A stretch of 20,378 bases of DNA, taken from a virus. The DNA is taken from positions 1 through 20,378 of the IMG/VR virus record IMGVR_UViG_3300037246_001300, one strand, 5' to 3'. This document shows positions 5,140 through 11,450 of the stretch, in pieces. The notes under the pieces were generated by a model, which did not search any database, was not told the DNA's origin, and worked only from the letters and a program-made list of their open reading frames with translations. A program made the position numbers and the translations under genes. Each line of letters opens with the position of its first letter. Within the stretch, counting starts at the first letter, position 1.

Positions 5140-5269
5140 CCGCTGCCCACCGTTCCCCGATCCCGAGGCCGGCGTGATCGACGCGATCCCGGGCGACCAG
5201 GGCGGCCCGATCGACCGCTGGATGGTGGCGCTGGCGAAGCTCGCCAAGCAGCTCGACGCCTGCGACTAG
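5012..5269 (+). CDS. Candidate outer-membrane spanin lipoprotein (Rz1-like), overlapping frame
   Basis: This frame overlaps the Rz-like gene in another phase and runs past its stop. The start is uncertain: GTG 5012 gives 85 residues with a basic n-region followed by the hydrophobic stretch SLLILFPLMLLATS; CTG codons at 5075/5078 are alternatives. The hydrophobic stretch ends in LLATS-C, a plausible lipobox with the lipidated Cys at base 5114. The mature 51 residues are Pro/Gly/Asp-rich near the N-terminus (CPPFPDPEAG) and end in a short amphipathic helix. Rz1 proteins are short, Pro-containing outer-membrane lipoproteins that join an inner-membrane partner across the periplasm to fuse the two membranes. 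The stop shares a CTAG with the opposing gene. Confidence 0.55.
   Translation: MSRAGGPSRASRTRRATSCASLLILFPLMLLATSCVTESGPANRCPPFPDPEAGVIDAIPGDQGGPIDRWMVALAKLAKQLDACD
5266..5269. other. Shared CTAG: stop codons of two convergent genes
   Basis: TAG at 5267-5269 ends the Rz1-like gene on the plus strand and TAG read from 5268-5266 ends the CPCC gene on the minus strand. The two coding regions therefore overlap by four bases with no terminator between them. Confidence 0.85.
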
Positions 5270-5793
5270 CGCGGCTGGTCCACGGGCGGCACGATCGCCG
5301 CCATCAGCTCCCGGTAGTCGAACTTGTCGGCGAGCGCGTCCAGGATGTAGAGCTGCGGCCCCCCGAACTTTTGCAGCCGGTCATCGTAGACGTAGGCGAT
5401 CTTCTGGATCGAGAGCCTGTTCAGGACGTAGGCCAGGCCCTTCAAGGTGAGCCGCCAGAACCCGCTCGTCTTCTTGTGCGGCTCGTCGTCTTCACCCTTG
5501 ATCCTCGGTTCGATCAAGCCCCAGTGCTTCGGGATCGAGTAATCGACGCCGCTCTTTGCCGCGTTCAGCTTGACGCCCACCTCAGTCCAGTGAACCCAGC
5601 CGCCCTCGCGCGTGAGGCCGAGCTGGTAGAAGCCGATCAGCCAGCGCGCGATCCCGGCGCTGACCCGTCGCGGGTAGATCTTCACGTTCTGCCGGCAGCA
5701 CGGGCACGGCACCTTGCCGCCCCCCTTCACTTGCTCGCGCGTCCAGTCGCGTGTCGCCTTGAGGGTCCAGTCGTCGGTCGGGGGTCCGGTCAT
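5266..5793 (-). CDS. Phage protein with CPCC knuckle and winged-helix-like region
   Basis: 175 residues, starting at the ATG at 5793 that overlaps the RusA stop (ATGA). Longer upstream readings are Arg/Pro-rich shadow of rusA and were rejected. Cys30-Pro-Cys-Cys33 resembles half of a zinc ribbon, with no second Cys pair visible. The middle (ARWLIGFYQLG, VHWTEVG, HWGLIEPR, SGFWRLTLKGLAYV) looks like a winged-helix or PadR/MarR-like module. The end (FGGPQLYILDALADKFDYRELM) is typical of a widespread uncharacterised phage protein type. Its position, last in the leftward operon after RusA, suggests DNA binding or replication/recombination, but no specific function is known. Confidence 0.75.
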   Translation of the reverse strand: MTGPPTDDWTLKATRDWTREQVKGGGKVPCPCCRQNVKIYPRRVSAGIARWLIGFYQLGLTREGGWVHWTEVGVKLNAAKSGVDYSIPKHWGLIEPRIKGEDDEPHKKTSGFWRLTLKGLAYVLNRLSIQKIAYVYDDRLQKFGGPQLYILDALADKFDYRELMAAIVPPVDQPR

Positions 5794-6287
5794 TTCACCA
5801 CCTTTAGGTCGGCCTTCTGGTTGATCTTCGCGACCTGGATCAACGCCCCGGGCTCGCGTAGCCACGTCTTCGATGCGAACACGCCGCAGATCTGTTTGTC
5901 GTCGGCGTAGAGGACGCCCTGGAGCGCATCGCCGACGGCGCGCAGCAGCTTGTCCAGATCGGGCGTCACGGTCGGGTAGTTGCGGTCGGGCTTCTGCGGC
6001 GTCTTCAGCCGGAAGTGGACCTTGAGGAGCAGCGGCTCGTCCGCCTGGTAGTACGGCCGGAGGCTGCGGCCGGGGAGGGCAATGAGCGCCTGCACGGCGG
6101 ACCAGCCGACCAGCTCGCGCCATGTCTTGAGCCGCGCGCCTGCCTGCTCGACGGGCCACGCCTTCGCGCGGTGGGTGAGGATCCCGCCGGCCTCCTCGAC
6201 GACCACCTTGGCGCGGGCGACCTTGGATCCCTGGGGCACGGGGCGGCCCCTCACCTCGAACGTGATGGCCCTCACGGTCGCGGGCAC
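5790..6287 (-). CDS. rusA: RusA-like Holliday junction resolvase
   Basis: 165 residues from GTG at 6287; the codon before it is a TAA, so the frame cannot extend. The N-terminus has the family signature GRPVPQGSK (about residues 14-22). The core has PDLDKLLRAVGDALQGVLYADDKQI (split here as PDLDKLLRAVGDAL and GVLYADDKQI), with Asp110, Asp112 and Asp130 aligning with the metal-binding aspartates of RusA. RusA enzymes are dimeric endonucleases that cut Holliday junctions symmetrically and are often phage-borne, serving to resolve recombination intermediates before packaging. The gene follows a 139-base untranslated stretch that may hold its own promoter and is coupled by ATGA to the gene downstream. 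No strong Shine-Dalgarno is seen; the GTG at codon 5 is an alternative start. Confidence 0.93.
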   Translation of the reverse strand: MPATVRAITFEVRGRPVPQGSKVARAKVVVEEAGGILTHRAKAWPVEQAGARLKTWRELVGWSAVQALIALPGRSLRPYYQADEPLLLKVHFRLKTPQKPDRNYPTVTPDLDKLLRAVGDALQGVLYADDKQICGVFASKTWLREPGALIQVAKINQKADLKVVK

Positions 6288-6370: not shown

Positions 6371-6428
6371 AACTCACCTAACCCCCCGTCCGAAAAGGGT
6401 TCGCCCTGACAAAACTCCGACAGAACTC
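6366..6428. repeat. Three short direct repeats GACARAACTC
   Basis: GACAAAACTC occurs at 6366-6375 and 6408-6417, and GACAGAACTC at 6419-6428, where the last bases enter the 3' end of the neighbouring CDS. Copies start 42 and 11 bases apart. Between the first two lies a weak inverted repeat, AACCC (6380-6384) and GGGTT (6397-6401). This stretch is visibly less GC-rich than its surroundings. It could be an operator or iteron-like site controlling rusA. The rest of the 6288-6426 gap shows no gene. Confidence 0.5.
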
Positions 6429-6789
6429 AGCCCGCTACGAAGGAGGGCTCTCCGCCCGGCTTGCCGTAGTCCAGCCAGTCCTGCGCGGCGTAGTAGAGAG
6501 ACTGAAGGGCGACCTGCTGCTGGCTCAGGAGCGCCTCCATGCGCCCGATCCACTCGTCCTCAGTGAGCGCCAGAGACGCCCGCTGGAGGTTGGCTAGCTC
6601 GAGTTCCAGCTCGTTCTGGCGCAGGTCGCCGGAGGTGTCGTGCGTGAGGAGGGTCCACGCCAGGCGCCGCTGGCACGGCGCGCAGAGGTTCATGTAGAAG
6701 CCCGGAACGACCTCGTGGCGCTCGGCCAGGAACAGGTTGATGGCCTCGCCGGCCGCTCGCCCGGTCGCGCACTTCTCGCAGTCCATCAT
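6427..6789 (-). CDS. Hypothetical protein with paired CxxC motifs
   Basis: 120 residues. Two adjacent ATG codons begin it, overlapping the upstream stop. Cys4-Cys7 and Cys36-Cys39 (CEKC and CAPC) form a likely four-cysteine zinc site. The C-terminal 70 residues are mostly helical and acidic, with Leu/Gln-rich stretches (LELELANLQ, LLSQQQVALQSL). No family is recognised. It lies third in the leftward operon behind the repressor and the Acb2-like gene. It could be a small DNA-, RNA- or protein-binding factor. Confidence 0.78.
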   Translation of the reverse strand: MMDCEKCATGRAAGEAINLFLAERHEVVPGFYMNLCAPCQRRLAWTLLTHDTSGDLRQNELELELANLQRASLALTEDEWIGRMEALLSQQQVALQSLYYAAQDWLDYGKPGGEPSFVAG

Positions 6790-6983
6790 CGCGTCGCCCG
6801 CAGAGCCTTCTCGGTCCAGAGGAGGGCCTGCTCGATGGCCGTGATCGCCAGCGACTTCAGCCGGCCGTCGGGGACAACACGGTTGATGCCGGTCGCGAAC
6901 TTCAGGGCCAGGTCTTGAATCTCCTGGGCGCGCTGGTCGGAGTTGCTCTCGTCGATCAGTCTGGAGTGCAGGTCGTCCATCAT
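6786..6983 (-). CDS. Acb2/Tad1 hairpin-domain-like small protein (candidate anti-CBASS/anti-Thoeris sponge)
   Basis: 65 residues, two helices by composition. The C-terminal half reads VVPDGRLKSLAITAIEQALLW followed by TEKALRATR (the first motif here split at W). This closely follows the pattern P.GR.KSLA.T.LE.A..W...AI that I associate with the Acb2/Tad1 hairpin family. Characterised members are small phage proteins that bind cyclic oligonucleotides or gcADPR-type signals and so block CBASS or Thoeris immune signalling. The gene overlaps the stop of the xre repressor (ATGA) and is preceded by GAGAGGGA. Co-expression with the repressor would make it an immediate product on entry. Ligand-binding residues cannot be verified by eye, and the broad family contains members of unknown function. 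Confidence 0.6.
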   Translation of the reverse strand: MMDDLHSRLIDESNSDQRAQEIQDLALKFATGINRVVPDGRLKSLAITAIEQALLWTEKALRATR

Positions 6984-7210
6984 GTCCGGTCCCTCTCGGT
7001 GATGGCGAGATCGAGCCGGCGCTCGCGGGGGAGTCGCAGCTTGACCGCCAGGTTGTGTGCCCAGGATTCGATCACGCGCAGGGTGGAGCCCATCGGCTCG
7101 GAGCCGTTCTCGATCCCGGAGAGCGTGGTCTGGGGGATGCCCGTGGCCCGTTCCACGTCCTTCTGGGTCATCTGACGGGCCTCTCGAAACGCGCGGAGAT
7201 TCAATCCCAT
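6980..7210 (-). CDS. XRE/Cro-CI-type helix-turn-helix repressor
   Basis: 76 residues from ATG 7210. It is a nearly bare HTH domain: helix 1 around LRAFREARQ, the helix-turn-helix MTQKDVERATGIPQTTLSGIENG (in two parts, MTQKDVERATG and IPQTTLSGIENG, about residues 14-36), then two closing helices. Such short proteins act as Cro-like or minimal CI-like repressors that dimerise on palindromic operators. No Shine-Dalgarno precedes the ATG; a good -10 box sits just six bases upstream, implying a leaderless mRNA. A set of TAGCG/CGCTA half-sites overlaps that promoter, so autoregulation is likely. It is the first gene of the leftward operon and faces the divergent rightward genes, the usual place for a phage switch. 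Confidence 0.88.
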   Translation of the reverse strand: MGLNLRAFREARQMTQKDVERATGIPQTTLSGIENGSEPMGSTLRVIESWAHNLAVKLRLPRERRLDLAITERDRT

Positions 7211-7216
7211 CGCCCG

Positions 7217-7244
7217 ACTATAGCGTTGCGCCGCTAGCGGTCAG
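7217..7244 (-). promoter_or_regulatory. Leaderless xre promoter
   Basis: On the minus strand, CTGACC (7244-7239), a 16-base spacer and TATAGT (7222-7217) give a good sigma70-like promoter. The ATG of xre begins seven bases after the -10, so transcription would start at or next to the start codon. Confidence 0.55.
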
Positions 7245-7250
7245 CCGCTA
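7221..7250. promoter_or_regulatory. Probable repressor operator: overlapping palindromes
   Basis: Within 30 bases there are TAGCG (7221-7225), the perfect palindrome CCGCTAGCGG (7231-7240) and CCGCTA (7245-7250). TAGCGG-TCAG-CCGCTA (7235-7250) is itself a perfect inverted repeat. The sites overlap the spacer and -35 of the xre promoter, as expected for an autoregulated Cro/CI operator. Confidence 0.6.
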
Positions 7251-7387: not shown

Positions 7388-7606
7388 ATGAAGACCAAGA
7401 TCGAAAAGAGCCACAGGGAATCGAGAACGATTCGACTGAACCAGGAGCGCATCCTCGACGGGCCGATCCGCGCGCTCACGACGGACGTGACCGAGCTGGT
7501 CCACGCGGCCCGGGACATGATTACCGCCTACGCAAAGCGCTCGTCGGTGCCGCGCGAGATCACGGCGTTGCAGTCGGCCGTCGAACCCTTCAAGCACCTC
7601 GACTGA
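7388..7606 (+). CDS. Small hypothetical protein, first rightward gene
   Basis: 72 residues. ATG 7388 is chosen over a GTG at 7286 because the G-run lies five bases upstream and the upstream translation is Pro-rich, unlike coding sequence. The protein is charged and helical (KTKIEKSHRESR at the start, HAARDMITAYAKR in the middle), with no Cys, signal or membrane segment. It is the first gene after the divergent control region, so probably early-expressed. No family recognised. Confidence 0.72.
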   Translation: MKTKIEKSHRESRTIRLNQERILDGPIRALTTDVTELVHAARDMITAYAKRSSVPREITALQSAVEPFKHLD

Positions 7607-11249: not shown

Positions 11250-11450
11250 GTGTCTGTCCGACCGCCGTGGGAGCAGTACGAGTGCCCAGGGTGCGGCAAT
11301 CGCGTCACCGAGTCGGAGCGCCGCAAGGCGCCCTACGACTACTACTGCGTGGAGTGTGGCGAACATCGCCTCGCTAACTTTCAGCTCGTGAAGGACCGCA
11401 CGGCTGGAACTGGAATCCGAGCCGGTCCTGATGAGCGCCGCAGCCCCTGA
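11250..11450 (+). CDS. Small zinc-ribbon protein
   Basis: 66 residues from GTG 11250. Cys12-Cys15 (CPGC) and Cys33-Cys36 (CVEC) form a classic four-cysteine zinc ribbon. The last ~20 residues are Arg/Gly-rich and lie over the first 20 bases of terL in another frame. It directly precedes the large terminase and may be a small DNA-binding accessory; no family assigned. Confidence 0.68.
   Translation: MSVRPPWEQYECPGCGNRVTESERRKAPYDYYCVECGEHRLANFQLVKDRTAGTGIRAGPDERRSP

Follow-up and report, generated by a model that had tools for sequence, protein, structure and literature searches.

The locus and its genes

The window, by which we mean the whole stretch of 20,378 nucleotides that was analysed, is a 20-kb virus fragment encoding an N4-gp56-type capsid protein, a GpA-type large terminase, an Sf6-type small terminase and a portal protein. 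Its closest IMG/VR capsid relatives are about 45% identical, a search of viral contigs for the terminase found no relatives, and those window proteins that were scanned did not include a recognisable integrase. Two further genes of the fragment can be described in passing. A 939-aa protein (55-2874) with an LPD38 domain (large polyvalent protein associated domain, E 1.5e-20) is related to parts of far larger phage proteins and is likely an internal virion protein. A 66-aa zinc-ribbon protein (11250-11450) gave weak, sub-threshold DksA-like and Lar (restriction alleviation) matches.

The gene studied here belongs to a leftward operon, in which the minus-strand order is xre, the hairpin gene, a paired-CxxC gene, a 139-base gap, a RusA gene and the gene of a CPCC-containing protein. 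The first gene, xre (6980..7210), encodes a 76-aa HTH_3 (Cro/C1-type) regulator (PF01381, E 1.8e-10), which could equally be Cro-like or a repressor. The hairpin gene (6786..6983) encodes a 65-aa standalone protein, MMDDLHSRLIDESNSDQRAQEIQDLALKFATGINRVVPDGRLKSLAITAIEQALLWTEKALRATR, and shares an ATGA with the stop of xre at 6980-6983 and another, at 6786-6789, with the start of the gene for the 120-aa paired-CxxC protein (6427..6789). No relative of the latter was found in Pfam, PHROGs, PADLOC, NCBIfam or viral contigs. Beyond the gap lie a RusA-like Holliday junction resolvase (5790..6287; PHROG 140, E 4e-23; PF05866, E 3e-10) and, in ATGA overlap with it, the 175-aa CPCC-containing protein (5266..5793; PHROG 2693 matches its 5266-5655 portion, E 7e-17). 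The hairpin ORF is very likely a real translated gene, because its GC content by codon position (0.64/0.41/0.88) is similar to that of the neighbouring genes and a plausible ribosome site, AGAGG, precedes its ATG. Thus, the gene arrangement described by the initial annotation, with a 65-residue product containing the family-like motif PDGRLKSLAITAIEQALLW, a four-base overlap with xre and a paired-CxxC gene directly behind, proved accurate in each of these points. From the overlap, the same annotation also predicted that xre and the hairpin gene would be made first.

Upstream of xre, two tandem 16-bp dyads (TAGCG-N6-CGCTA; 7221-7236 and 7235-7250) form a candidate Xre operator. This exact pattern is found nowhere else in the window and in 0 of 100 shuffles, figures to be read with the pattern having been picked after it was seen. 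Beneath both dyads lies a promoter-like CTGACC-16-TATAGT on the minus strand (7217..7244), a match to consensus of a type observed once in the window against 0.3 expected in shuffles, and 6 bases separate the end of its -10 box from the xre ATG. The position of the dyads over the promoter and the closeness of the -10 box to the xre start suggest a leaderless, autoregulated transcript. A divergent 72-aa ORF (7388..7606, plus strand), for which no family match was found, faces the operon, and it is plausible that the region upstream of xre is a switch region.

Family membership and predicted fold

The hairpin protein matches the curated Pfam profile Acb2_Tad1_hairpin (PF24729) with an E value of 1.5e-9 and 38.3 bits, above the curated cut-off of 27, and also PHROG 1454 (E 6e-10), to which PHROGs assigns no function. 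The motif fit noticed earlier is therefore far beyond chance, and the assignment to the Acb2/Tad1 hairpin family is upheld by both the curated profile and the predicted fold. PADLOC and NCBIfam searches returned no match to the protein, and a plasmid search for the hairpin found none. When viral contigs were scanned with an alignment of five sequences, 131 relatives were confirmed, of which 80 were kept; the alignment used below (A2) consists of the window protein and 57 relatives, and all 58 members match PF24729. Compared with PDB chains, the A2 profile finds Acb2 homolog 43 (9ptq) at E 5e-13 and Tad1 at E 8e-5, and therefore the family bridges Acb2 and Tad1 by sequence; the match to the chain of T4 Vs.4, the Acb2 of T4, is weak (E 0.13). 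The nearest relatives, 26-37% identical in A2, are actinophage and Paenibacillus phage proteins of PHROG 1454, and one family member matched 328 phage records. Actinophage proteins of the hairpin type have been reported in print as putative Acb2 (PMC13348362, PMC11953737). In several Paenibacillus phages, such as Halcyone (locus L091, 1989-2204), the family protein is labelled 'putative phosphomannomutase', which is almost certainly a misannotation.

AlphaFold2, run as a monomer with A2, predicted helices at residues 2-9, 17-36 and 41-63 with a mean pLDDT of 94. The model thus has a short N-terminal helix and two long helices forming a helical hairpin, with no beta domain, which is the layout of the Acb2 protomer used for comparison (PMC12043709, PMC10419184). 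Many of the best structural matches in BFVD are named Acb2/Tad1 hairpin domain-containing protein, with probabilities up to 1.00 and TM of about 0.8. When the model was searched by Foldseek in the PDB, nothing significant was found, but the control model of a canonical relative fared no better, with T4 Vs.4 only at E 2.4 and TM 0.60, so this negative result has no bearing on the fold. By analogy with the family, the hairpin protein would assemble into a hexamer.

Residues kept and lost

Five residues, R41, T48, E51, A53 and W56, are invariant across the 57 relatives, and all of them are kept in the window protein, as is K43. The changes are found at other conserved positions of A2, where F9 (53/54 relatives) is replaced by L9, the Y/F/H of position 11 (48/55) by D11, H12 (47/55) by E12, R23 (51/57) by Q23 and N58 (57/57) by E58. 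The last of these substitutions is not decisive, because T4 Acb2 (Cys) and 9ptq (Thr) also have no Asn there. The remainder amounts to replacement of the N-terminal RFx[YF]H motif of the relatives together with the basic residue 23, and no aromatic residue precedes F29 in the window protein. All other A2 members with a fully included N-terminus have an aromatic residue in the N-terminal segment; the other members flagged for lacking one start late as cut for the alignment. In three other family members (L023, L026 and L057), RF is kept, VTAA, VTAV or GTAA replaces [YF]H, and position 23 is not basic, so this subfamily may be a further case in which the dinucleotide signature is partly lost.

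These positions can be related to characterised Acb2 proteins. In T4 Acb2, Y8A disrupts cyclic-dinucleotide binding and Phe82 stacks on the ligand (PMC12657218), and T68M lowers binding (PMC12657230). Thr68 of T4 corresponds to T48, which is kept, and Tyr8 falls within the segment that is lost. N-terminal residues were matched to T4 by MAFFT and motif, and the Tyr8 column moves by one or more between alignments; the robust form of the statement is therefore the absence of any aromatic residue before F29. When T4 Vs.4 was compared with the family by hhalign, the last helix alone was aligned. Position 23 aligns with T4 Lys23, with PaMx41 Lys26 and with a Lys in 9ptq, a position which we take to have a role in binding. 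R41 aligns with PaMx41 Arg67 within the PGR motif; this pairing was read by motif because the automatic alignment misplaces the insertion of T4 and PaMx. Arg67 is presumably a cA3 contact, and a role of R41 in trinucleotide binding may follow if the two residues are equivalent.

Neighbourhoods of the relatives

The initial annotation had read the operon as a combined switch and counter-defence module, and this reading was not sustained. No recurrent partner was detected by Pfam scan among 54 upstream and 53 downstream neighbours of the relatives, and none of these neighbours is a Cro/C1-type HTH protein; HTH_38-type proteins located before terminase account for a few of them. On these neighbours, which were picked by a longest-ORF rule, we rejected the idea that Xre and the hairpin protein form a conserved module. 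The window xre has no relative in the fetched loci, and none of the four genes xre, hairpin, CxxC and RusA has a relative in the loci fetched as capsid relatives. The annotated phage relatives of the hairpin gene adjoin thymidylate synthase, terminase or tRNA genes. In Gordonia phage Octobien14 (locus L005, 1-3201), the relative is encoded downstream of genes for nicotinamide phosphoribosyltransferase and a nucleotidyltransferase, possibly an NAD-related counter-defence neighbourhood. Such scattered neighbourhoods are as expected of mobile counter-defence cargo. The hairpin gene looks like mobile accessory cargo, whose place behind xre would be particular to this lineage. What we have here, as the operon extends into RusA and the PHROG 2693 protein, is a putative early operon with one counter-defence candidate rather than a dedicated module.

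Function of the hairpin protein

Because the Acb2/Tad1 core is kept and the N-terminal dinucleotide signature is lost, we infer a sponge of the Acb2 type whose target is a trinucleotide or has shifted in some other way. We lean towards the interpretation that the hairpin protein is a sponge of this type whose dinucleotide site has been lost or remodelled, whose likeliest ligands are cyclic trinucleotides or another signal, and which is produced from an Xre-led operon. In Acb2, dinucleotides sit between N- and C-terminal parts contributed by two protomers, and the trinucleotide site is formed at the ends of the central channel at the trimer interface, similarly in Tad1 (PMC12043709). On this interpretation, a short helix and a helical hairpin would assemble as a hexamer in which the cyclic-dinucleotide site of characterised Acb2 is lost or remodelled. 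If the protein is a sponge, its likeliest ligands would be cA3 or cAAG, bound where the conserved core forms the trimer interface, or some other signal, and by sequestering this host nucleotide signal the hexamer would keep a CBASS-type effector inactive. The protein would be made from the Xre-led leftward operon that also carries RusA, probably under Xre autoregulation. The ligand and the counter-defence effect are what we would predict from the family. Regarding the earlier proposal that the protein binds CBASS or Thoeris signals, the family on which it was based stands, but the absence of both the N-terminal dinucleotide motif and the Tad1 beta domain weakens the step from family to ligand.

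A canonical Acb2, binding both cyclic di- and trinucleotides with other residues serving the dinucleotide pocket, would have the same family and fold, and 9ptq has Thr at the site of position 11, so an aromatic residue there is not universal. Nevertheless, the window protein has acidic D11 and E12 in place of the aromatic-His pair as well as Gln in place of the basic residue 23, in addition to its want of an aromatic residue before F29, and we consider this reading not very probable. A sponge for gcADPR directed against Thoeris, as in Tad1, is scarcely probable at all. The family profile does match Tad1 chains across the hairpin, but loops of the Tad1 N-terminal beta domain help to form the gcADPR pocket (PMC12043709), and gcADPR is an unlikely ligand of a 65-aa all-helical protein because that domain is absent. 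The changes at several conserved positions might also mark a family member in decay, no longer able to bind a ligand and now without a function; we regard this as decidedly improbable, since the reading frame is unbroken, GC3 is 0.88, a plausible ribosome site is present, the core residues remain and the model has high confidence.

The loss of conserved ligand-site residues, together with the ATGA coupling immediately after xre and the autoregulatory look of the dyads, could instead be explained if the hairpin fold had been co-opted to act with the co-encoded Xre regulator, as its partner or modulator, and not as a defence antagonist. However, gene overlaps are routine in phages, 0 of 54 upstream neighbours of the relatives are Xre-type and the fetched loci contain no relative of xre, and thus we think this explanation unlikely. 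It is very improbable that the hairpin protein binds a host alarm nucleotide and reports to, or is co-regulated with, Xre as a defence-signal-responsive phage switch; if this were true, host immune signalling would alter phage gene expression.

The preferred reading, an Acb2-type sponge with a changed dinucleotide site, matters beyond this locus. Hairpin proteins are widespread in phages and are increasingly labelled Acb2 by homology alone, and a family profile match can outlast the residues used for dinucleotide binding, as in this copy. The protein therefore offers a good way to test whether the family shifts its ligand (to trinucleotides), changes its role or binds via other residues.

Comparison with known systems

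Tad1 and the window protein recognisably have in common the hairpin core R-x(6)-T-x(2)-E-x-A-x(2)-W, but most of the gcADPR/dinucleotide site of Tad1 is in its beta domain, which the window protein lacks. The actinophage and Paenibacillus phage proteins (e.g. Gordonia phage Octobien14 gp100) share the KSLAITAIE block, and unlike the window protein they retain RFx[YF]H, R23 and N58; their gene neighbourhoods also differ. Compared with Acb2 (T4 Vs.4, PDB 7uq2; PaMx33/PaMx41 gp24; homolog 43, PDB 9ptq), the window protein has no counterparts of Tyr8/Tyr11 (T4/PaMx) or of the basic K23/K26, with D11, E12 and Q23 instead, and its gene sits behind an Xre gene. It nevertheless resembles Acb2 as a standalone small all-helical hairpin protein of the same hairpin family, in the arrangement of a short N-terminal helix and two long helices, and in T48, the equivalent of T4 Thr68.
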